From positions 1-64,000 of the forward strand of contig CAMYKY010000002.1 in assembly GCA_947259165.1 (NCBI GenBank): a stretch of DNA of 64,000 bases, in the 5' to 3' direction. The position numbers and the translations under genes were made by a program. Positions 5,677 through 40,000 of this stretch are shown here, piece by piece (position 1 is the stretch's first letter; each line of letters opens with the position of its first letter). Under the pieces are notes generated by a model. That model was not told where the DNA came from and made no database searches. It saw only the letters and a list, made by a program, of their open reading frames with translations. The DNA is from an uncultured Acidobacteriota bacterium (GTDB lineage Bacteria > Acidobacteriota > Vicinamibacteria > Marinacidobacterales > SMYC01).

Positions 5677-6252
5677 CTAAACGTCTTCTCGGGCAAGCTC
5701 GCTCACCTCACGCCAATGATGTTGTCGAATACGTGGCCACTCGATTCTTAGCCACGGTGTGTATTTCGATGAATCCCGCCGGAGAGAGCGGTCGAGCTCG
5801 TCAGGATCAACGAATTCACACCGATGGATTTCAGTTGGGTTCGCGCCAACAGGTGATGTGAGTAGACCCGCGTAGACGGCGCAAATCTCTTTCTCGGTCC
5901 CGCGGTCCTCATACCGCGCTTCGTACTGAAAGGTGAATAGGGGTCGCAGCGGTAGGTCGACACCGAGTTCTTCGGAAAGGCGTCGCCGTGCAGCAATCAT
6001 TGCGTCTTCTCCCTTTCGGGGATGGCTGCAACAACTATTGGACCAGAACATAGGCCAGAGAGACTTGCTGCCGCTGCGTTGTTGTAGAAGAGTTTCGAGT
6101 CGCTTGTTGAAGAGGAAAACAGAAAATGCACGGTGGAGTAGCCCGTCTTCTTTGTGACAGTTTGCTTTCGTCTCGTAGCCAAGTATGTTGTCGTCGTTGT
6201 CGACGACAATCAACAACTCGGATTCGGAGGAAACTATTGGGTCATTAGCCAT
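5677..6252 (-). CDS. idi: isopentenyl-diphosphate delta-isomerase, type I (NUDIX fold)
   Basis: LLHRAFSVFLFN...LWPMFWSNSCCSHPRKGED...AARRRLSEELGV: type I IDI / NUDIX motifs. Confidence 0.87.
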   Translation of the reverse strand: MANDPIVSSESELLIVVDNDDNILGYETKANCHKEDGLLHRAFSVFLFNKRLETLLQQRSGSKSLWPMFWSNSCCSHPRKGEDAMIAARRRLSEELGVDLPLRPLFTFQYEARYEDRGTEKEICAVYAGLLTSPVGANPTEIHRCEFVDPDELDRSLRRDSSKYTPWLRIEWPRIRQHHWREVSELAREDV

Positions 6253-7143: not shown

Positions 7144-8145
7144 TCACAAGGGCGCCGAGAAGACTGTTTGACCAAGTATTTCTTTGTTGATGTAGGCGAC
7201 CGTCTCGTGAAGTGTCTCGTAGGGGTCGCGGGCGCGAAAGCCGAGCTCGCGCTCCGCTTTTCCGGCGTGGAGGTACCAAAACCGTTGCCCCATCTCTGCG
7301 CTGATACGATCGACGGGCGGCGCTTTGTCGAGTTGACGGTAAAACGCGTCCACCGCCATCCCCGCAAGCGAGTACATCGACTCCGGCAGCTTGACTCGCG
7401 GGCCTTTCACTTTGCTGATGCGCTCGAGTCGTTCGAAGAACACCTTAAAGGTCCAGTTCGGTCCGCCGAGAAGATAACGCTCGCCGGGTTGACCTTTCTC
7501 CATCGCACTTCGAAGGGTCTCCGCGACGTCGCGGACGTCGACAAAATTCACGCCGCCAGGAGGGATAACGGGAACATCTCTCGCAAGAAACCTCAAAACA
7601 TCTTCCGTCGACGAGAGCTTCTTGTCGCCGGGGCCAAGAAGAAGACTCGGGTTCAAAACAACGAGCTCGGGACCCCCTTCACACTCCCGCCTCGCCGCCT
7701 CTTCCTGATAGAGCTTACTAGTGTAGTACGGCCAGCCGCCGATGAGCTCGAGCGGAGGACGCGCCGTTTCATCGGGCACCGTCTTGCCGTTGTCCGTTAC
7801 CGCGATTGTCCCGCTCGTTGACGCCAGCACGATGCGCTTCACACCGGCGCTTTTTGCCGCGCGACAAAGCGTCGTCGTCCCCTCGACGTGAACTCGGTAA
7901 AGCTCCCGCACGTCGTCCGGGTTGCGTGAAACTTTTCCGGCAAGGTGATAAATCTGCTCGACGCCATCGACGGCTTTTTCAACCGCCTCCGCATCGAGCA
8001 CCGACCCCTCGACACTCTCGACATCCGCAGCTGAGCCCGTTAGCCGACTCGCGCGCACCAACACCCGAACCTCGCCGGGCTCGAGTAACCGAATTAGATG
8101 CGACCCAAGAAACCCCGTCGCCCCTGTTACTAGAATCTTAGCCAA
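7144..8145 (-). CDS. NAD-dependent epimerase/dehydratase-like SDR (dihydroflavonol-4-reductase-like)
   Basis: The track ORF extends to 8412 into the upstream gene; likely TTG start at 8145 gives LAKILVTGATGFLGSHLIRLLE. GxxGxxG and YYTSK motifs present. Confidence 0.82.
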   Translation of the reverse strand: MAKILVTGATGFLGSHLIRLLEPGEVRVLVRASRLTGSAADVESVEGSVLDAEAVEKAVDGVEQIYHLAGKVSRNPDDVRELYRVHVEGTTTLCRAAKSAGVKRIVLASTSGTIAVTDNGKTVPDETARPPLELIGGWPYYTSKLYQEEAARRECEGGPELVVLNPSLLLGPGDKKLSSTEDVLRFLARDVPVIPPGGVNFVDVRDVAETLRSAMEKGQPGERYLLGGPNWTFKVFFERLERISKVKGPRVKLPESMYSLAGMAVDAFYRQLDKAPPVDRISAEMGQRFWYLHAGKAERELGFRARDPYETLHETVAYINKEILGQTVFSAPL

Positions 8146-8159
8146 AAGAAAAAGCTTTC

Positions 8160-11100
8160 CTATAATTTCTTCCCAACCGTGACCGGTTGTCGCGCTTTCT
8201 TCTCCGTCAAGAAGAACTCCCGCACGCCTTTGACTTCCGCTTCCAGATCGATTTTGGCTCCATCGCGCGCGTGCTCGACGATGCGTTGGGCGAGAAGGGC
8301 AACCGCGCGCTCTGAGTCCGAGCGTGACAGCCCGTCGGAGACCTGCAAAAGAGTCTCGTAGGAGAGAAAAGGACCGATGCTCGCGCTCACGTCCCTCGAT
8401 TGCGGGTACCACTTACCTGGAGGAAGCGCTCCGTAGGTGGAAAGATGCATGGGAAGGATTCCGACCTTCGCGCGTAGCACGAGGTGCCCGATGCCGCGCT
8501 GAAACGGCTGCATGACGCCCGAGCGAGACCGGGTTCCCTCGGGGAAAACGAGGACATTGTAGCCTTGCTCGAGCAAGTGAAAAGCCCATTCCAGGGATTT
8601 CCTCAAGGAACCCTTTCGCTCCATGGGAACCAGGTTCGTGAAGTTCTCGAAAACCGTGCGCTTGACTTTGTTATCGAAGAAGTAGTCGGCCGCGGCCAAG
8701 GCAATGAGGTTTTCTCCCGAGTCGCCGAGGGCCATCTTGACGAGCCCCATGTCGAGGTGAGACGAGTGGTTGGCAACGACGATGAAGTGGGTATGGTCGG
8801 GGATATTGGCTTGGCCTTTGAACTCAGGATTCAACGCGTCATGGTAGAACCAACGCTGAGCCACGGAGAGCCCCTTCTTTCCGATCTCCTGAACAAAGGG
8901 CGGAAGATCGATTTTCTCCGTCTGGTCTTCTTTACTTTTATCTGGCCCGCTTCTCCCAAATTGCTCGCCCGCTCGCGGTCCGCGTCTGAGACTATCGGCG
9001 AGCTCGCGAATCCCTGACAGGGACATCAAGACGTCGGGCGAAAGGCTCTCGCCGGTTCGGCTCTCGATGGCACCGGAGAGCTCGCTATACATCAAGCTAT
9101 CGAAGCCAAGCTCGTCGAGGCTCCCGTCGAGTTTCACCGCCTCACGAGGCTTCTCCGAGACTCGCGCCACGATATCCAAGAGCCAGTTTTTGTCGGCCGC
9201 ACTCAAGGTAACGTCCTTCGAATCGAGTTGGCGTTTATCCTGGAGCCATGCCACGAGCTCGCGCCGTTTGACCTTGCGGGTCGCCGTCCGCGGGAGCTCT
9301 TCATCCCTCAGCTCGAAGATCTTCACGCGTTTGTATAGGGGTAGTTTCGCAGAAACCTCGCGAACGTGAAGTTCTATTTTCTTGTCGAGGTCTTCTTCTT
9401 TCGAGTCACGATTGGGCACGAAGACCGCAGCGACTTGTTCGCCCGCACCATCGGGGAGCCCGACAACCGAGAGCTCCTGGATCAGGTCTTCATTCGCATA
9501 AAGCTCCTCGAGCTCATCGGGGTACACGTTCTTGCCGTTGCGATCGACGATCAGCTCCTTGGAACGTCCGACGATGTAGAGGTTCCCGTCCTCGTCCAGC
9601 CGGCCGAGATCACCCGTGTACAGCCAACCGTCGCGCAGCGTCTCGGCGGTGGCTTTTTCGTTCCCGTAGTAACCCGCCATCACGTTCGGCCCGCGAGCAA
9701 TGACTTCGCCGACGCCGCGCCGATCGGGTTCTTGGATTTTTATCTCGATACCAGGAAGCGGCCGTCCGACACTTCCGGACACGACACTTCCTTCGGGTCG
9801 CGTCACCGTGAGTACTGGAGAAGCCTCGGTCAGCCCATAACCTTCGTTCAAGTTGAAGCCGAGACCTCGGAACGTTTTGAGCGTCGGCTCCGAAAGGGCC
9901 GAACCCCCACTGATGAGGTAGCGAATCCTGCCGCCGAACGCAGCATGAACCGGCAAGAACAAAAGAGGCCCGAAGTTGAGTGGGGTCTCGTCTCGCAACA
10001 AGTAGTTGGCGTCAATGAGCGCCGATGCGATTTCCTCGAGCCGTGCAGAGCGATCCGAGAACCGGCCGAGGATACGCCTCTTCAGTAAGTCCCACAGGGC
10101 GGGCACACCGACGATACAGGTCACGTGACCCTTCTTGAGCTCGCGGTTGAGATTATCGCCGTTGACTTCCTTCAAATAGGTGATCTGAGCGCCACGACTC
10201 AACGGCAGAAGAAAACCGGTCGTGAACTCGAACGAATGATGAAGCGGCAAGACGCTCAGCATCCCGTCATCATGGTTGATGTCGTAGACCGAGAGAAGCT
10301 TCGCAAGCAGGCTCGTGAAGTTCTTGTGAGTCAGCATCACGCCCTTCGGGTTGCCGGTCGTTCCCGAAGTGAAGATAATCGATGCGGTCGTCCCCGGACT
10401 CACCGTCTTTGGAAGCTCGGAAATACGTTTTTGTTCCGTCGCTTCAGTCGTGAGCACGAAGACTTCGTCAAAGGTCCAGATCGCAATCGACTCGTCGAGG
10501 TCCTCGCGAAGCCCGGGGTGTTTTGCGAGAAGCTCGGGGCTGATGATGAGCCCGCGCGCATCGCCGAGACCGACGAGCCGGACAATCTCTTCGGTGCCGA
10601 CCTCCTTTTCGAGGGGAATGACGGCGGCACCGGTGCGAATGATACCGAAGTACGTCATGCCCCATTCGGGGCCGTTGTCGGACAGCAGGGCGATGCGGTC
10701 GCCTCCGCCAACGTTTTTGCCCTTCAGAAACGCGGCCGCGCGCAGCGCACACTCGCGCAAATCGCCGTAGGTGTAGCGCTCTTCGCGCCCATCGCGCTCG
10801 ATCCGCATCGCGAGGCGCCCGGTGTGGTTTTTAGTGCAAGCATCAAAAAGCTCGACGAGGTTTTTATAGGTGTAAACCCGGCGAGGCTTGGCCGTCTCCA
10901 CCTCGTCGAAGCGAGGGAATACCCACTTTTTCAACCCCGGCAGATGAACTCTCAGCCAGTAGTCGTACCAGTCGATTGCCTCCGGCTCGAACGTGAGCGA
11001 GCGGTCTTCAATCCGAGCGAAGAGTTTTCTCGTGTTGTCGGTGCGGAACACGTAGTTGTTGTCGACAATGAAGGGACGAAACGTGTCGTAGTGTTCTTCA

Positions 11101-12521
11101 CCTTCGCGGGCAAACGCTTCGAAGCGCTCCACCGCGTCTTTTGCCTGTGCGACGAGCGGGGCAAAGGGCCCAACTTGGCGCGCGGTCACGTGACCGAGTG
11201 CTTTCGAGATGTGCTTCGTCGCTTTGTGAAGAAGCGGCATCGAGTATTTCTCGAAGCTTTCCGGCTCGACCGCTTGAGCCTCCATCCGCGCCGCTATCTT
11301 GTTGAGAATTCGGCTGCCTGACGACTTCCCGAGAAAATACTGCCGTTTGTAGAGTCCGAGCAAATCCACCAGCCGGCCCAGCCGCGATGGATTGGTATCG
11401 CCCGACGCGACCTGATAGACGAGCTCGGGCTCCTCGAGCATCGTCTGAGCGCTGACCGCGAGCGCCGCCGAAGCGACCAAATCCACGGGGATGACGTCCA
11501 AGATGACGTCGGTGTTGACCGGGAACAAGTTCTGGCCCCGCATTGCCATCCGCACTAGCGGCGCGGTCGTGGTGAAGCCTTCGTTCCAACCGGGGAAAGG
11601 GAACTCGAGTGCGCTTTCAACAATCGCCGGTCTGAGGATCGCACGAGCGATCCCCTCTTCGGCGGCGACCAACTGTTCACCCAAGCTCTTGGTATAGGTG
11701 TAAATGTTGGACCAACCCCAGCCTTGCGCCTTCTCGATCCCGAGATCGGTCAGTCGCGATCGGATCCAATTCTTCCGTTCGCGCGCGATCGCGAGGCTCA
11801 TCGCTTTGTCGTCCCCGGGATCGCGGCCTTCTTCCAGGAAACGCTCTTGGGCTGCTTCGCGGAACCGATCGGCTAGTGATTTGTCGCGCGCCTCGTCCTT
11901 CACGCGCGCCGCGAGTCGCTCGCAATCATCAATCTCTTTGTCGACGGTAAACTCCGAGGACTCGACGCGCCGTCGCGGGAAATAGCCTATGAGGGGCTCG
12001 TTCTCCCAGACTTCTCCGGATCGATTCCCGGCGACGAAGCAGGTGCTCACGTGCACGAGGGCCGGGCGTTTCATCCGCTTAGCGAACGCGATCGTATTGA
12101 GGGTGCCGTTCACGTTGGTCTTGAGGGCCGCTTCGAGCGGCGGGTTGAAGGTCACCCGCCCCGAAGAGTTGAGAAGGACATCGATATCGTCGGCGATCGC
12201 CTGCGCTCGTTCTGCTCCGAGCCCAAGATGCTCGCTGGTGATATCGCCACCAACGACGACGACTTTCTCGCGAAGAAATTGGTCGACGTCTTTGCCGTAG
12301 TGCTTACGCAGCGGGTCGAGCGCAGGCGACGGGACGATCGACTCCCAGAACCGGCTCTCGCTTTCCGCTTCCGAGCTCGCGCGCACCATGAGATAGACGC
12401 GGCCGATACCGGGGAAGCGATCGAGGAGCATGCTCAGACAGACCTTGCCGAGAAAGCCGGTTCCGCCGAGCAGAAAAATGCGGCGGCCCTCGAACGTCTT
12501 GGTGAGGTCGATCGGATTCAT
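8160..12521 (-). CDS. multidomain fatty acyl reductase / AMP-ligase / ACP / PlsC acyltransferase (ElbD-like)
   Basis: 1453 aa. N-terminal FLLGGTGFLGK with YTYTK; TSGTTGNPKGVMLTHKN and YTGDLGRLDEDG; ACP LGFDSLMYSEL; PlsC NHSSHLD and FPEGTRSRSG. Confidence 0.9.
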   Translation of the reverse strand: MNPIDLTKTFEGRRIFLLGGTGFLGKVCLSMLLDRFPGIGRVYLMVRASSEAESESRFWESIVPSPALDPLRKHYGKDVDQFLREKVVVVGGDITSEHLGLGAERAQAIADDIDVLLNSSGRVTFNPPLEAALKTNVNGTLNTIAFAKRMKRPALVHVSTCFVAGNRSGEVWENEPLIGYFPRRRVESSEFTVDKEIDDCERLAARVKDEARDKSLADRFREAAQERFLEEGRDPGDDKAMSLAIARERKNWIRSRLTDLGIEKAQGWGWSNIYTYTKSLGEQLVAAEEGIARAILRPAIVESALEFPFPGWNEGFTTTAPLVRMAMRGQNLFPVNTDVILDVIPVDLVASAALAVSAQTMLEEPELVYQVASGDTNPSRLGRLVDLLGLYKRQYFLGKSSGSRILNKIAARMEAQAVEPESFEKYSMPLLHKATKHISKALGHVTARQVGPFAPLVAQAKDAVERFEAFAREGEEHYDTFRPFIVDNNYVFRTDNTRKLFARIEDRSLTFEPEAIDWYDYWLRVHLPGLKKWVFPRFDEVETAKPRRVYTYKNLVELFDACTKNHTGRLAMRIERDGREERYTYGDLRECALRAAAFLKGKNVGGGDRIALLSDNGPEWGMTYFGIIRTGAAVIPLEKEVGTEEIVRLVGLGDARGLIISPELLAKHPGLREDLDESIAIWTFDEVFVLTTEATEQKRISELPKTVSPGTTASIIFTSGTTGNPKGVMLTHKNFTSLLAKLLSVYDINHDDGMLSVLPLHHSFEFTTGFLLPLSRGAQITYLKEVNGDNLNRELKKGHVTCIVGVPALWDLLKRRILGRFSDRSARLEEIASALIDANYLLRDETPLNFGPLLFLPVHAAFGGRIRYLISGGSALSEPTLKTFRGLGFNLNEGYGLTEASPVLTVTRPEGSVVSGSVGRPLPGIEIKIQEPDRRGVGEVIARGPNVMAGYYGNEKATAETLRDGWLYTGDLGRLDEDGNLYIVGRSKELIVDRNGKNVYPDELEELYANEDLIQELSVVGLPDGAGEQVAAVFVPNRDSKEEDLDKKIELHVREVSAKLPLYKRVKIFELRDEELPRTATRKVKRRELVAWLQDKRQLDSKDVTLSAADKNWLLDIVARVSEKPREAVKLDGSLDELGFDSLMYSELSGAIESRTGESLSPDVLMSLSGIRELADSLRRGPRAGEQFGRSGPDKSKEDQTEKIDLPPFVQEIGKKGLSVAQRWFYHDALNPEFKGQANIPDHTHFIVVANHSSHLDMGLVKMALGDSGENLIALAAADYFFDNKVKRTVFENFTNLVPMERKGSLRKSLEWAFHLLEQGYNVLVFPEGTRSRSGVMQPFQRGIGHLVLRAKVGILPMHLSTYGALPPGKWYPQSRDVSASIGPFLSYETLLQVSDGLSRSDSERAVALLAQRIVEHARDGAKIDLEAEVKGVREFFLTEKKARQPVTVGKKL

Positions 12522-12531
12522 ACAGTCGGGT

Positions 12532-14127
12532 CTATTCGACGTCGGGAATCAGAATGGGTGGCAGGTGCAGCATCGTGATCTCGGCGGTGCGCCCTAAATG
12601 GCTTCGCGCGTTCGCGATCGCTTCGGCCAGGTTCTGGGCTCGATCCCAACCGAGCATCTCGGGCACGTGCTGGTTCTCGGCGCCGGCGGCGATGATTTTG
12701 CTGACATGGCGTCTTCCGTTCTCACCCCAGTACCACATGAAAAACGGGTGTGCGCCGTGGTACGCGTTGCCTTGCCGGTACATTTGTATATAGCTCGGAT
12801 TGTTAGCGAACTCCTCCTCGTACTTCTCGCGCAAGGTGAACGGGTCTCGTGTCTCCGGCAGCAAACGGTGAAAGAACTCGATGTAGCTCGGGTGGAATTT
12901 CGCGTCGAAATCGTCGTAGCACGGGTGGCACAGTATGAGCACCCCGCCTTCGCGCACGAGCGGCTTGCCGCGATAGAGGTTGAAGAAGTAGCCGGGACCC
13001 ATCACTTGAACCAAAAGCGGATTCAAGATCGAGTTCACGTTGTACGGCGAGATGTAGGGAACGCCGACGATCAGAATGTCGCACTGGCCTTTCACCTTGA
13101 CGGCGTACTGGTCGAAGCAACGCTCCAGTGTCTTGTCGTGCACGGGATCGGTGCGGCCGGCGTAGCAAGCGATCATCTCGAACGGCGAAGGGATGTTGTG
13201 GAAGAAGGTCCGTTTCATCGCCCTTGGGAGCTTCGACGTCGTCCACATGGTTGCTTTGAGCTTCATCCGGTCGAGCTCGGTGAAATCGTCTTCGTTCTTG
13301 CCGAGAAACTCGAGCTGGTCCGAGTACATGCGGTTGTTCAACACCGTCTCGATGTGGAACACGTTGAGATGCTCGTCCACGAGCGCCCCCATGCGCACAC
13401 ACTTGTGGTTGAGCTCGGACTTCGCCGGATCCATGTAACCGTTGGAGTCAATGATCGTTTGCGGCTCGTGGTGGTGCGTCAGGCTCGAGTAGTCACAAAG
13501 GCCTACCGTCACCGATTTGTGACCGCCGTCCATCGGGACGAGGTTGATGTTGATGTAGATGACGAGATCGCTTTCGCACGCGCGTCGATTGATACGCAGG
13601 TGCTCGCCGTGGCGAGTCTCGCCCAGGCTCACGAGCCCATCTGGTTGTTCGGCGTCGTGGCAATAGTAGCGAGCGGGGTAGAACGCGTCGTGTATTTCAG
13701 TCCCCACCATGCGACGCATCTCGCCTTCCGTCATTTTTCGATGGAGGGAGTTGGCGACGATAATGTGGATATCGTCGACGCCGTGGTCGGACAGAAGCTC
13801 GAGAACGACTTCGAGCGCCGTCTGGCGAGTATCGGGGGTCACCATCGGCGGCAACGGGAGGCTGATGTCGTCGACCGCAATCGTGATCTTCATCCCGGGT
13901 TGCAGTTGCGCATGGAGTGGGTCGCACCCGAGCGGATGATTGATCGCATGGCGAATGGCGCCCCGTGGATTCGGGAGTCCCTGGATCGGCGGCTTGGGGT
14001 AGATGACTCGGGTCCCGACGGGGAGGTCTTCTTCCAGGAAGTCTTCGCCGGATTGAATGATGCGCGGCGCGGAATCGGTATCGATATGTACCGTGCCAGG
14101 GTCTAGCTTTCTGCGTAAAACGGGCAT
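12532..14127 (-). CDS. LarA-like / DUF2088 family protein (putative nickel-pincer racemase-like)
   Basis: [40 protein letters not shown]..., [13 protein letters not shown] and GGHKSVTVG (Lys in the LarA pincer-lysine context); likely start ATG 14127. Confidence 0.78.
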
Positions 14128-14135
14128 GCGTTTTT

Positions 14136-14798
14136 CTATTGAAGGCTCACAATGGGCCAATCGTGGCGCAGAGCCGTGCTCTTGAGCCGAAGGTCAGGGT
14201 TGGTGGCCGTGGGATGTCCAACAACGGACAACATCGGCAAATCGCTCATGCTGTCAGCGTACGCGTAACAGTCGTTGAGTTGGAGGCCTTCTTTCTCCGA
14301 ATAGGTTCGTATCCAGGACGCCTTGGTCGCGCTTGCCATAATGGGTGGTTTCAGCCGCCCTGTCGCGCGGCCATCGACGAACTCGAGTTGGTTGGCAACG
14401 TACTCGGTAATACCCAGATAGCGGAGCAGCGGCTGGATAGTGATATCGAGTGCGCCGGTCACGACGACTTGTCGTAGTCCCGTGCGGCGGGAGCTGTCGA
14501 CCAGCGGGAGTGCGCCCGGGTAAACGGCTGGAAGGACCACTTCCTGAAACAAGTCTTCCGCCAAATAGCGAAGCCGATCTTCGGATTGACCTTTGTACCA
14601 TTTGAAGAAGATGTCGTTGAACACTTTGCGGCTGTAGGCATCGGCGGCCATGAACAGCGGGAGTCCGGCGACGGTTGCTAACGTGCGGCCCAGGCTCTTC
14701 AAGATTCCCTGGTCGTTGCGGGCATAGAAGGCGAACACATGCACCAGATTGGTGCTCACCAGCGTCCCGTCGAGGTCGTAAAAAGCTGCTCCAGCCAC
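14136..14798 (-). CDS. HAD superfamily subfamily IB hydrolase (phosphoserine phosphatase-like)
   Basis: [34 protein letters not shown] motifs. Confidence 0.85.
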
Positions 14799-14843
14799 GT
14801 CGTTATCCCTACTGCTCTCAAGCAGTTAGTTGTGAAACATTAC

Positions 14844-14872
14844 ATCTTATGTCTTTCGGGCGCGGCGCTCAA
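14844..14872 (-). promoter_or_regulatory. sigma70-like promoter for the HAD/LarA/megaenzyme/SDR operon
   Basis: Reverse strand TTGAGC - 17 nt - TAAGAT, about 45 nt upstream of the HAD gene start. Confidence 0.5.
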
Positions 14873-14931: not shown

Positions 14932-14960
14932 TTGACCGGAAGGGAGCGTCGACGTAGGAT
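14932..14960 (+). promoter_or_regulatory. sigma70-like promoter for fabH
   Basis: TTGACC - 17 nt - TAGGAT, about 40 nt upstream of ATG 15001. Confidence 0.55.
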
Positions 14961-15000
14961 GAGGGATTATGTTGCCGTACACCCTGGAGGGCCCATCCTT

Positions 15001-16011
15001 ATGACACTCCGCCGCGCCGCCATCACCTCAGTCGGCCGTTTCTTACCCGAAAAGGTGTTGAGCAACCAAGATCTCGAGGTTCTCGTCGAGACATCCAATG
15101 ATTGGATCGTCGGACGCACCGGGATCCGAGAGCGCCGTATCGTCGAAGAGGGCACCGGCACGTCCGAGCTCGCCGCCGCGGCCGCCCAGGAAGCACTCGA
15201 CCGACGCGGTATCTCCGCTGACGATATCGACCTCATCATCGTTGGCACCGTCACCCCGGACATGATGTTCCCGTCCACCGCGTGCCTCGTGCAGGACAAG
15301 CTCGGGGCGTCCCGAGCCTGGGGGTTCGATCTCTCGGCAGCGTGCTGCGGCTTCGTCTACTCGTTGACAGTGGGCTCGCAGTTCATCATGAGCGGCGCAC
15401 ACGAGCGCGTTCTCGTCATCGGCGCAGACGTGATGAGCAGCATCATCGATTACAGAGACCGAGCGACGTGTGTCATCTTTGGCGACGGCGCGGGCGCAGT
15501 TCTCCTCGAGGCGGCGAACGGGGATGAGGGTCTCATCGGCTACCAGCACAAAATCGAGGGCCATGGCGGACAGTATCTGTACATGCCCGGCGGCGGAAGC
15601 CAACACCCCGCATCCGCGAATACCGTCGAGCAGAAGATGCACTACGTGCACCAGGACGGACGGCAGGTGTTCAAATATGCCGTGCGCCGAACCTACGAAA
15701 CAACGACGTCTCTTCTGGCACGCGAGGGTTTCACACCCGACGACGTGTCGCTTCTAATCGCCCATCAGGCCAACATGCGCATTCTCGACGCCACCCGCGA
15801 CCGGCTCGGACTTCCCGAAGAAAAAGTCGTCAAGAACATTCACAAGTTCGGCAACACCACCGCCGCGACTATCCCCCTCGCGCTCTACGACGCCCTCGAA
15901 GACCGCCGTCTCGACAAAGGCGACTTGATTCTCTTCAGCTCAGTAGGAGCCGGCTTCACCGCCGGGGCATCGCTATTCCGCTGGGGCGGGCTCAGAAGCT
16001 CCGGCGAATGA
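15001..16011 (+). CDS. fabH: 3-oxoacyl-ACP synthase III (FabH)
   Basis: [51 protein letters not shown]; start at ATG 15001 preceded by ggagg. Confidence 0.9.
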
Positions 16012-32101: not shown

Positions 32102-33475
32102 ATGAATCTCTGGGAAGAAATACTCCAAAAGGTCGAGTCCAAGGTCAACCGACATAGCTTCAATACCTGGTTTCGTCCGACACGACTTCTTTTTGAAACT
32201 GGCGATACGGTTGGCGTTCTTGTCCCCAACGCTCAGTTCAGGGACTGGCTCAACAAACACTACTCCGGCATCATCCACGAGTCGCTCGACGAGTTGCACC
32301 GCCCCGATCTCGAGGTTGTTTTCGAGACCGACGCGCCTCGCGACGCTGTGATCTCTAACGGCCAGAATTCCTCCTCGTCTCATCCTTCGTTCGGCTCTCA
32401 GCGTAGGGAAGCGGGAGGTGATTCACAACGCGGCAATGCGTCGCGAGAGGCCCACCCACAGCCGCCGCTCAATCCAAAATATCGTTTCGAGAGCTACGTT
32501 GTTGGCACCAGCAACCAGTTCGCAAACGCCGCGGCCCGCGCCGTCGCGGAAGCGCCGTCGCGCGCGTACAACCCGTTGTTCATTTACGGCGGTGTCGGGC
32601 TGGGAAAGACTCATCTTCTCCACGCCATCGGGCACCAGATTCTAGAGCAAGCCCCTTCGTCGAAACTCGTTTATATTTCCGCGGAAAAGTTCATGAACGA
32701 TCTCATCAACGCGATCCGCTACGATCGGATCCTCGACTTCCGCGACAAACATCGATCCTTCGACGTGCTACTCGTCGACGACATTCAATTCATCGCTGGC
32801 AAGGAACGCACCCAGGAAGAGTTCTTTCATACCTTCAACGCGCTCTACGACTACCAGAAACAAATCGTCCTTACCAGTGATGCGCTGCCCCGCGAGATCC
32901 CTACGCTCGAGGAACGCCTGCGCTCGCGCTTCGAATGGGGTCTCACCGCAGATATCCAAGCTCCCGACCTTGAAACCAAGATCGCTATTTTGCGTAAGAA
33001 AGCAGACGCCGAAAACTGTGACCTGCCGGACAACGTCGCTATCTTCATCGCCTCGCGCATCAAGTCGAACATTCGAGAGCTCGAGGGCTCTCTCATTCGG
33101 TTGATCGCCTACTCTTCACTCACCGATCGCGCGATCGACCTGGCTCTCGCACAGGAGGTCCTTCGCGACCTCCTATTGAGCGAGGAGAAGCTGATCAACC
33201 TCGATTCGATTCAGAAATTCGTCGCGGATCACTACCGTCTAAAAGTTGCCGACCTCAAGGCCCGCAACAACGCCAGGTCCGTCGCCCTTCCCCGTCAGAT
33301 CGCCATGTACATGGGAAAGTCCCTCACCAAGGCGAGCCTTCCCGACATAGGCAAAGCTTTCGGTGGAAAACACCATTCCACCGTCATTCACTCCGTCCGC
33401 AAGATCGCAACCCTGCGGCAAACCGACCCTGAGTTTGACAAGACGATACAAGGTTTTCTCGACACGTTTCGGTGA
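32102..33475 (+). CDS. dnaA: chromosomal replication initiator DnaA
   Basis: NPLFIYGGVGLGKTHLLHAIGHQ, LLVDDIQFIAGKERTQEEFFHTFNAL, GKHHSTVIHSVRKI. Confidence 0.98.
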   Translation: MNLWEEILQKVESKVNRHSFNTWFRPTRLLFETGDTVGVLVPNAQFRDWLNKHYSGIIHESLDELHRPDLEVVFETDAPRDAVISNGQNSSSSHPSFGSQRREAGGDSQRGNASREAHPQPPLNPKYRFESYVVGTSNQFANAAARAVAEAPSRAYNPLFIYGGVGLGKTHLLHAIGHQILEQAPSSKLVYISAEKFMNDLINAIRYDRILDFRDKHRSFDVLLVDDIQFIAGKERTQEEFFHTFNALYDYQKQIVLTSDALPREIPTLEERLRSRFEWGLTADIQAPDLETKIAILRKKADAENCDLPDNVAIFIASRIKSNIRELEGSLIRLIAYSSLTDRAIDLALAQEVLRDLLLSEEKLINLDSIQKFVADHYRLKVADLKARNNARSVALPRQIAMYMGKSLTKASLPDIGKAFGGKHHSTVIHSVRKIATLRQTDPEFDKTIQGFLDTFR

Positions 33476-33506
33476 CCGATGACGGAAGAAGACGAAGTCG
33501 AGCGAC

Positions 33507-33756
33507 CCTTCCACAAAATCGATCCACATGTGTGTGCATGGTTGTGCGGATACCCCATGCAACCCCGAACCACCCTCTTTTTTCACAGATCCACACATCC
33601 GATCCACTGGGAAATCCACACAAGATGTTAATTATAAATTCTTTAAATTCATATACTTAGGATGCCAATGGATTTCTATTAACAGGCCCTTATTGATATA
33701 ATTACTAAATAGAACCTTTCTTCTACTAGAGGAAAGAACAATAGGTATGGAAATAG
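33507..33756. other. putative oriC: DnaA-box-like sites plus AT-rich unwinding region between dnaA and dnaN
   Basis: CGATCCACA (33520-33528), AGATCCACA (33587-33595) and AAATCCACA (33612-33620), each 7/9 to TTATCCACA, next to an AT-rich stretch 33626-33720; genes diverge in strand around this region. Confidence 0.75.
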
Positions 33757-37411
<3,655 letters not shown>

Positions 37412-37416
37412 CGGGA

Positions 37417-37497
37417 CACTAGTGGGCTGTAACAGTTGAGCGTTGCGCAAAAGGACCCGCGATTTTGGCAACGAATAACTGTTACAGCCCACTAGTG
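37417..37497. repeat. long near-perfect inverted repeat between gyrB and gyrA
   Basis: Outer arms CACTAGTGGGCTGTAACAGTT (37417-37437) and AACTGTTACAGCCCACTAGTG (37477-37497) are perfect 21-bp complements; inner stem cgttgc(g)caaaa/ttttggcaacg; 10-nt loop; no T-run. Confidence 0.95.
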
Positions 37498-37543
37498 GCG
37501 CAGGGTCTACCCGCGCACCAGGTAACGTACCAGGGAGACAAGT

Positions 37544-40000
37544 ATGGCCACCACGGCTGACCGAACGCCGGTCAATATCGAAGACGAGATGAAGCGGTCC
37601 TATATGGACTACGCCATGTCCGTCATCATCGGCCGGGCGCTTCCCGATGTACGCGATGGCCTGAAGCCGGTCCATCGCCGTGTACTCTATGCGATGTACC
37701 GCGAAGGACTCCTCTCCTCTCGTCCCTACTCGAAGTGTGCCGGTATCGTCGGAGAGGTGCTGAAAAAGTACCACCCTCACGGAGACGCTGCGGTTTACGA
37801 CACGCTCGTTCGCATGGCGCAAGCGTTCAACCTGCGAGCGCCACTCATCGACGGCCAGGGGAATTTCGGCTCGGTCGACGGCGACCCCCCGGCAGCGTAT
37901 CGATACACCGAAGCGCGCCTCACTGCTCTCGCCGAGAGCATGATGCGGGATATCGACAAGGACACCGCCGATTTCGTTCCTAACTTCGATGGCAACACCA
38001 AAGAACCAACGGTGCTTCCCTCTGCGGTACCGAACCTTCTCGTCAACGGAACGACCGGTATCGCCGTCGGCATGGCGACGAATATCCCGCCGCACAACCT
38101 TCGCGAAGTCGTCGACGGCATTCTCTTCGCCTTAGAAAACAAGCAACTCGACGAAAACGAGCTGACCGAGAATCTTCTGGGTATCGTCTCCGGGCCTGAT
38201 TTTCCCACGGCCGCCTTCGTGCACGGCAGGCGCGGGATCGAACAGGCTTACCGCACCGGTCGTGGCACCATCCAGCTTCGCGCGCGCGCGACCATCGAAG
38301 ACACGGGGAAGGACCGGCAGTCCATCATCGTCACCGAGATCCCGTACCAGGTGAACAAGGCGAAACTCCTCGAAAAAATCGGGGAACTCGTCCGTGAGAA
38401 GAAGCTCGACGGCATCTCCGATATGCGGGACGAATCCGATCGAAACGGTATGCGCGTCGTCGTCGATTTGAAACGCGGAGAAGTGGGTCAAGTTGTTCTG
38501 AACAATTTGTACAAGCACACGACGCTTCAGACGAGCTTCGGCATCATCCTTCTCGCCATCGTTGAGAACCGACCCAAGGTGCTCAAGCTCGTAGAGCTCG
38601 TGCGCTTGTTCATCGACTTCCGTCGCGACGTGGTACGTCGTCGTACGGCGTACGAGCTACACAAGGCGGAGGAGCGCGCCCACCTCCTCGAGGGCTTCGT
38701 GATCGCCCTCGACCACCTCGACGATGTCATCGAGCTCATCAAGGCGTCGGAGAACCCCGCGGTAGCGCGTGCGGCGTTGATCGCAACCTACGAGCTCACA
38801 GAGATCCAAGCCCAGGCCGTTCTCGATTTGCAATTGCACCGCCTCACGGGAATGGAGCGGGACAAGATCGTCGCCGAGTACAAGGAAATCAAGGCGCGAA
38901 TCGAGGAGCTCAGGAGCATCCTCGCGAGTGATGAGCGAATCGACCAGATCGTCAAGGACGAGCTCGTTGATGTCAGGGAGAAGTTCGGGGACGACCGCCG
39001 AACCGAGATCATCGCCAAAACTCAGGAGATCAGCATCGAGGATATGATCGCCGAAGAAGACATGGTCATCGCCGTGTCCCACACTGGCTACATCAAAAGG
39101 AGCGCCGTCAGTGTCTATCGAGGACAAAAACGCGGCGGCAAGGGGCGCAAAGGAATGCGTACCCGCGACGAAGATTTTGTCGACCACCTGTTCATCGCCT
39201 CGACCCATTCCTACATCCTGATCTTCACCGATCGCGGAAAAGTCTATTGGTTGAAAGTCCACGAGATCCCGAGCGTCGGCGCCGCAGGCAAGGGCAAGGC
39301 GATCGTCAATCTCGTCGCCATGCGGCCCGAAGAAAAACTCGCCGCCGTGTGTGCGGTCAAGGAATTCCCCGAAGACAGGTTCGTTCTCATGGCGACGCGC
39401 AAAGGGATTATCAAGAAGACCCCGCTCTCCGCGTTCAAGAAGCCTCTGTCGCGCGGTATCATCGCCATCGGGATCGATGAGGACGACGCGTTGATTGCGG
39501 CCTCCGTCACCGAGGGCGATAGCCAAGCGGTTCTCGCGTCGCAGGGTGGGAAAGCCATCCGCTTTACAGAGACGGACGTCCGCACGATGGGTCGCACCGC
39601 GCGAGGCGTCAAAGGCATCGCGCTCTCGTCCGGTGACGTCGTGGTCAGCATGGCTGTCGTCGAGCCTGAGGGGACACTGCTCACCGTTACCGACAAAGGT
39701 TACGGGAAACGAAGCCGAATCGAGGACTATCGCCTCCAGACCCGAGGCGGCAAAGGGATCATCAACGTCAAAGCGACCCAGAGAAACGGTAAGGTCGTAG
39801 CTGTTCCCTGCGTCACCGATGACGACGAAGTGATGGTCATTACCGCCGAGGGCATGATCCTGCGTCTCGAGGTGAAGGATTTCAACATCCTGAGCCGTAT
39901 CACTCAGGGTGTTCGGCTCATCGATGTGGATGAAGGCGACCACGTAGTCGCCGTCGCGAAGCTTGCCGAAAAAGACGACGACCCAACGACTGGCGCCTAG
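37544..40000 (+). CDS. gyrA: DNA gyrase subunit A
   Basis: RSYMDYAMSVIIGRALPDVRDGLKPVHRRVLYAM; C-terminal beta-propeller repeats. Confidence 0.97.
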   Translation: MATTADRTPVNIEDEMKRSYMDYAMSVIIGRALPDVRDGLKPVHRRVLYAMYREGLLSSRPYSKCAGIVGEVLKKYHPHGDAAVYDTLVRMAQAFNLRAPLIDGQGNFGSVDGDPPAAYRYTEARLTALAESMMRDIDKDTADFVPNFDGNTKEPTVLPSAVPNLLVNGTTGIAVGMATNIPPHNLREVVDGILFALENKQLDENELTENLLGIVSGPDFPTAAFVHGRRGIEQAYRTGRGTIQLRARATIEDTGKDRQSIIVTEIPYQVNKAKLLEKIGELVREKKLDGISDMRDESDRNGMRVVVDLKRGEVGQVVLNNLYKHTTLQTSFGIILLAIVENRPKVLKLVELVRLFIDFRRDVVRRRTAYELHKAEERAHLLEGFVIALDHLDDVIELIKASENPAVARAALIATYELTEIQAQAVLDLQLHRLTGMERDKIVAEYKEIKARIEELRSILASDERIDQIVKDELVDVREKFGDDRRTEIIAKTQEISIEDMIAEEDMVIAVSHTGYIKRSAVSVYRGQKRGGKGRKGMRTRDEDFVDHLFIASTHSYILIFTDRGKVYWLKVHEIPSVGAAGKGKAIVNLVAMRPEEKLAAVCAVKEFPEDRFVLMATRKGIIKKTPLSAFKKPLSRGIIAIGIDEDDALIAASVTEGDSQAVLASQGGKAIRFTETDVRTMGRTARGVKGIALSSGDVVVSMAVVEPEGTLLTVTDKGYGKRSRIEDYRLQTRGGKGIINVKATQRNGKVVAVPCVTDDDEVMVITAEGMILRLEVKDFNILSRITQGVRLIDVDEGDHVVAVAKLAEKDDDPTTGA

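Follow-up and report, generated by a model that had tools for sequence, protein, structure and literature searches.

The elb operon of an uncultured acidobacterium

What is made by an operon in which a protein resembling the lactate racemase LarA is encoded between a phosphatase and a multidomain fatty acyl reductase, and what does the LarA-like protein contribute to it? The question is raised by four minus-strand open reading frames (ORFs), running from 14798 to 7144 in a stretch of 64,000 nucleotides from an uncultured Acidobacteriota bacterium (contig CAMYKY010000002.1, positions 1 to 64,000; hereafter the window). The source genome is a metagenome-assembled genome (MAG) of 5.0 Mb in 172 contigs, which is 84% complete. 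Judged by domain architecture and gene order, the four genes are an acidobacterial elbBCDE, the counterpart of the elb operon of Myxococcus xanthus reportedly described by Lorenzen et al. in 2014. The operon probably directs the synthesis of alkyl (ether) glycerolipids without AGPS, the enzyme which uses dihydroxyacetone phosphate to make the ether bond. The encoded proteins include members of the haloacid dehalogenase (HAD) and short-chain dehydrogenase/reductase (SDR) families and an acyl carrier protein (ACP) module:

14136-14798, minus strand: elbB, HAD-IB phosphatase, 220 aa
12532-14127, minus strand: elbC, LarA-like protein of the single-histidine type, 531 aa
8160-12521, minus strand: elbD, fatty acyl reductase / acyl-AMP ligase / ACP / acyltransferase, 1453 aa
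7144-8145, minus strand: elbE, extended SDR, NAD-dependent epimerase/dehydratase family

The intergenic gaps are 8, 10 and 14 bp, and an earlier reading made from the letters of this DNA (the sequence-only reading), which had described four tightly spaced genes on one strand, is borne out by the ORF coordinates. The elbC gene starts with the ATG at 14127, the longer ORF beginning at 14160, while elbE starts with TTG and its ORF is extendable into elbD.

ElbB matches PF12710 in Pfam at 1.4e-34 and TIGR01490 in NCBIfam with 121.7 bits (cut-off 98.3), and its translation carries the motifs DLDGT and DSMSDLP. A relative of ElbB is present at 39 loci, variant operons counted. The Pfam domains of ElbD are PF07993 (residues 19-352), PF00501 (564-952), PF13193 (AMP-binding_C, 1003-1083) and, towards the C-terminus, PF00550 (1112-1176) and PF01553 (1233-1360). 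All four modules of the megaenzyme proposed earlier are thus found, and their motifs (TGFLG, YTYTK, FTSGTTGNPKG, LGFDSL, NHSSHLD and FPEGT) are legible in the translation. The fatty acyl reductase (FAR) module comprises NAD_binding_4 plus a sub-threshold 'Sterile' domain, which is typical of FARs, and the best solved relative of ElbD, the fatty acyl-CoA reductase 7eoz, spans residues 8-535. ElbE belongs to PF01370 (1.8e-30), is HpnA-like with 235 bits, under the HpnA equivalog cut-off of NCBIfam, and contains the motifs TGATGFLG and YYTSK.

For M. xanthus, a 2022 review (PMC9131029) gives elbB as a HAD phosphohydrolase, elbC as a gene of unknown function and elbD as a fusion of FAR, acyl-CoA synthetase (ACS), ACP and acyltransferase (AT). 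Both the ElbD module order and the adjacency of HAD, elbC, elbD and epimerase/dehydratase genes recur in the window, the M. xanthus elbC being matched by position only. The sequence-only reading had likened the megaenzyme to ElbD, and the likeness extends, in architecture and order, to the whole four-gene set. Its view that the roles of the HAD and LarA-like proteins are undefined agrees with the review.

When the window proteins were searched by tblastn, elbB-elbC-elbD-elbE lay on one strand at every Acidobacteriota locus with enough sequence. The elbE gene follows elbD at nearly all loci and was not seen downstream at L032 and L046. The order is conserved across the taxonomic order of the window and in Blastocatellia, Pyrinomonas methylaliphatogenes K22 (L021) among them, and the neighbourhood survey recommended with the initial reading thus finds the HAD-LarA-megaenzyme-SDR order in dozens of genomes, so that chance is no explanation for it. 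All 14 genomes listed for the family and order of the window have elbC, as does one other genome of the class, and the gene seems to be characteristic of the order. Across the loci, ElbC ranks first or close to first in conservation among the four proteins (65-90% identity, versus 46-79% for ElbD). Thirteen of 149 genomes of the phylum encode ElbC, and all of these have ElbD or its FAR part, nearby in 12 of the 13. The ElbD relatives recovered by a contig search are all acidobacterial, except for one Gemmatimonadetes contig. On that contig (L049), a FAR, two AMP ligases and an acyltransferase are encoded one after the other by genes of their own, like ElbD in pieces.

Ether lipids as the probable product

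In M. xanthus, insertion into elbD strongly reduces the vinyl and alkyl ether lipids and inactivation of elbE also reduces them (PMC9131029), while fatty aldehyde is lost in elbD mutants. Strain K22, a cultured bearer of the acidobacterial operon, contains glyceryl ethers of iso-C15, iso-C17 and iso-diabolic acid, which make up more than 40% of its membrane lipid, the membrane-spanning part included (PMC4644332), a match of operon and lipid that is a correlation in one organism. The initial proposal of ether-type lipids is supported by this alkyl glycerol ether producer and by the match to elbBCDE.

In the envisaged pathway, the ElbD ligase would activate a fatty acid and load it on the carrier domain of the same protein; the ACS and ACP activities have been confirmed in vitro for M. 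xanthus ElbD only (PMC9131029). The reductase would, as its domains suggest, turn the thioester into a fatty aldehyde, possibly an alcohol. ElbC, with ElbB and ElbE, may join the reduced chain to the glycerol backbone or process it there, attachment of the second chain would fall to the acyltransferase domain of ElbD, and a lipid kinase of the DagK type could bring the neutral lipid back into the phospholipid pathway. A lipid kinase of the DagK/YegS family adjoins elb at about 20 standard loci, usually tail to tail. A search of the window MAG found no AGPS-like gene, its FAD-oxidase_C matches being, by eye, GlcD/GlcE-like and lactate-dehydrogenase-like. PF10520 (the CarF/TMEM189 desaturase of the plasmalogen pathway) had no match in the window genome, and control genomes gave none either.

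FAR modules commonly make fatty alcohols, and the acyltransferase of ElbD could act on an alcohol. The operon might then yield some other reduced acyl product, such as fatty alcohols or wax esters, with ElbC and ElbB engaged in a side reaction, a reading in keeping with the distant ElbD-like proteins that exist without ElbC and with a report of ElbD carriers in which ether lipids were not detected (Pontiella; PMC11868695). The ether lipid depletion of the M. xanthus elbD and elbE mutants (PMC9131029), the quantity of ethers made by K22 (PMC4644332) and the presence beside elb of the lipid kinase and, at L068 and L069, of PlsY argue against such a product and render it rather improbable.

Several points weigh against the synthesis of alkyl ether glycerolipids by the window operon. 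The AT and FAR activities of M. xanthus ElbD went undetected in vitro, and orthology to the M. xanthus ElbB, ElbC, ElbD and ElbE proteins is deduced from the domain architecture and gene order given in the literature rather than from an alignment. Four genomes encode a distant (33%) ElbD-like protein without ElbC, so that ElbC is not tied to every ElbD-like protein. In the window genome, the lipid kinase is encoded on a contig other than that of elb, the product in the window organism is predicted from its genes, and at 84% completeness the absence of AGPS from the MAG is not proof.

ElbC as a LarA-like protein

ElbC falls in the LarAH14/15/16 family NF052592 with 815 bits (curated cut-off 740). 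A profile of 33 ElbC sequences, some at 35% identity, retrieved 9q2u (2.7e-56) and 9q3j (8.6e-46), both single-histidine LarA-like proteins, as the top PDB matches, followed by true LarAs. A fold search with the AlphaFold2 model (mean pLDDT 88) returned 9q3k as the best match, with a TM-score of 0.77 by query and 0.85 by target, the order being as in the profile search; on this model, ElbC has the LarA fold. The LarA residues D72, H108, K184 and H200 correspond to D87, H129, K204 and H220 of ElbC, all of them invariant in the 33-sequence alignment, the cofactor lysine K204 and the nickel ligand H220 remaining unchanged even in the 35%-identical sequences. The two residues K184 and H200 expected of a LarA-type racemase are thus present, while the second catalytic histidine H174 and K298 are not: the H174 stretch is four residues shorter and histidine-free, no lysine occupies the position of K298, and Leu, Met or Gln takes the place of R75. 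Two-base racemization in the manner of LarA therefore appears unlikely from these residues, while binding of the nickel-pincer nucleotide (NPN) cofactor is plausible. LarA relatives without these residues may perform another hydride-mediated reaction, as suggested by Desguin et al. (PMC7583248).

The NCBIfam name of the family, together with the conservation of K204, H220 and the first catalytic histidine H129, could be taken to indicate a conventional nickel-pincer enzyme that racemizes or epimerizes hydroxy acids and supplies a chiral building block. This role is unlikely, given the shortened, histidine-free H174 segment, the absence of Arg and Lys at the R75 and K298 positions and the nearest solved proteins, single-histidine LarAs with which lactate racemization was not observed (PMC12611868). 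With these nickel-pincer proteins (9q2u, 9q3j and 9q3k), ElbC shares the whole-length fold and the loss of the second catalytic histidine; it differs in sequence (20-22% identity) and in context, theirs being carbohydrate genes and that of ElbC a lipid operon. A plasmid search for ElbC relatives returned ordinary LarA only, and none of the papers searched linked ElbD to lactate racemase, or DUF2088 to ether lipid.

Possible dependence of ElbC on the nickel-pincer cofactor

ElbC may need the NPN cofactor. The window genome carries larB, larC and larE, which may be explained by the canonical LarA (L084) that it also encodes. Among the 13 ElbC genomes in the sample of 149, larC is present in 12, larB in 11, larE in 11 and all three in ten. 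The association of elbC with larC or larB is not significant across the 149 genomes (p 0.11 and 0.22). In genome G141 (L089, L093; 98% complete), elbC is present and larB, larC and larE were not found, while three sister genomes have these genes on separate contigs, three different ones in one sister genome. G141 also retains a canonical two-histidine LarA with an intact site, so that the loss does not bear on ElbC alone; cofactor salvage, a loss in progress or assembly gaps are possible causes.

Alternatively, ElbC may no longer use NPN and be a structural or otherwise catalytic descendant of LarA. G141, the lack of larE in genome G095, the non-significant association with larB and larC, and the judgement of Desguin et al. 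(PMC7583248) that group 16 of the family is not NPN-dependent all point in this direction. The invariance of K204 and H220 in all 33 sequences, the most distant included, the complete larB, larC and larE set of ten of the 13 ElbC genomes and the unspecific nature of the loss in G141 point the other way, and the NPN-free alternative is regarded as somewhat doubtful, while deserving serious consideration.

Variant operons and a reduced core

In genomes G095 and G131 (L068 and L069), the third gene, between elbC and elbE, encodes the FAR part of ElbD only (residues 1-538 matched), and a DagK/YegS lipid kinase gene follows the FAR-only operon on the same strand. A second type of variant is seen in G148 (L070:7263-16239), with dagK, a distant elbD (~31-33% identity), elbB, a zinc alcohol dehydrogenase gene and a distant elbC (35%), and in G008 (L071:5369-12683), with dagK, elbD, elbB and a zinc dehydrogenase gene, its elbC lying near the end of another contig. 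The elbE gene was not found at the L070 and L071 loci, and the lipid kinase adjoins elb in both variant types.

The ligase, carrier and acyltransferase of ElbD thus appear dispensable from the operon. The ElbE SDR seems replaceable by an unrelated dehydrogenase, and since a zinc enzyme takes its place, it probably catalyses a simple carbonyl/alcohol conversion. We infer a conserved core of ElbB, ElbC, FAR and one oxidoreductase, often with a lipid kinase alongside, and the pathway would touch a glycerolipid phosphate that is removed and then restored.

Divergent from the FAR-only operon of G095, a radical-SAM protein resembling the tetraether synthase Tes is encoded at L068:11943-14102 (plus strand), with 316 bits, under the family cut-off of 450. 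A 73%-identical copy occurs in the window genome (G000:C24:25982-27994), a few kb from a canonical LarA. These positions suggest that ether and membrane-spanning lipid genes may cluster.

ElbC as a candidate ether-bond enzyme

A second M. xanthus ether operon, MXAN_1676-1674, encodes AGPS, a FAR-acyltransferase and an SDR (PMC9131029). FAR, acyltransferase and SDR are common to both operons; AGPS is found there, ElbB and ElbC in elb. Subtraction of the shared parts leaves AGPS against ElbB plus ElbC, and with no AGPS found in the MAG, ElbC with ElbB is therefore the candidate for the ether-bond step. The review reports no elbC mutant. AGPS beside distant ElbD-like genes without ElbC, an arrangement that would have supported replacement, was not seen among the neighbours scanned. 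As a specific and rather speculative version, one improbable in its details, ElbC could replace AGPS as follows: the pincer cofactor would take the hydride from C2 of glycerol and give it back to the same face, in line with the single histidine; the transient C2 ketone would let C1 swap its oxygen substituent for the reduced chain; and ElbB and the lipid kinase would remove and restore the phosphate.

The findings bear on the aerobic synthesis of alkyl-ether lipids by bacteria without AGPS. Alkyl-ether lipids are akin to the branched tetraethers that serve as climate proxies. The reduced core draws attention to ElbC, and a connection of the nickel-pincer cofactor family with membrane ether lipids, if borne out, would be new to both fields.

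Promoter and flanking genes

Upstream of the operon, two further features were considered:

14844-14872, minus strand: weak sigma-70-like match TTGAGC-17-TAAGAT, 8/12 consensus positions
14932-16011, plus strand: fabH, beta-ketoacyl-ACP synthase III (KAS III), TIGR00747 with 377 bits (cut-off 292), divergent neighbour

The letters of the promoter that had been called recognisable are present at 14872-14844, while its significance is rejected: the match falls below the 9/12 cut-off of the promoter scan, which missed it, and five better-scoring promoter-like sites occur in the same stretch (2.1 expected), so that it is without evidential value. Upstream of elb, the window and the other loci of its group have a divergent fabH-DUF255 pair, and fabH holds the same place at L009-L014, L026, L027, L034, L036 and L042. 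It is absent beside the Blastocatellia elb loci. Being divergent, and with different flanks in Blastocatellia, fabH was rejected as an operon part, and the fabH-DUF255 pair probably does not belong to the elb system. The OleABCD head-to-head hydrocarbon pathway, prompted by the ligase, SDR and KAS III neighbours, was likewise rejected because the KAS III scores as a true FabH and the SDR scores 69 against an OleD cut-off of 580. Two genes downstream of the operon, a type 1 isopentenyl-diphosphate isomerase is encoded (5677-6252, minus strand; 157 bits, cut-off 127). Consecutive ORFs at 32102-40000 resemble dnaA, dnaN, gyrB and gyrA when their translations are read by eye, and the likely origin region that they mark is some 17 kb from the elb operon.

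Comparison with known elb operons

The M. xanthus elbB-elbE genes (MIBiG BGC0000871) have the same order of HAD, unknown-function, FAR-ACS-ACP-AT and NAD epimerase/dehydratase genes as the window. The window operon differs in lacking elbA upstream, in its divergent fabH and in its phylum, Acidobacteriota. Elsewhere in this phylum, PMC10087280, citing Sinninghe Damste et al. (2018), records the whole elb operon for Acidobacteria subdivision 4, and PMC9426513 describes elbD-like clusters from sponge Acidobacteriota. In genes and order, the window agrees with the loci from Blastocatellia and sponge bacteria that were compared here; the sponge loci also share the upstream fabH-DUF255 pair, while other flanks are found in Blastocatellia. 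The sequence-only reading had ranked the operon as the strongest candidate for an undescribed system, which does not hold, elbB and, by position, elbC being part of the operon described in 2014 and the whole operon being known in subdivision 4. With the operon itself already known, what is new here is the identity of ElbC as a LarA-like protein and the reduced operon core.

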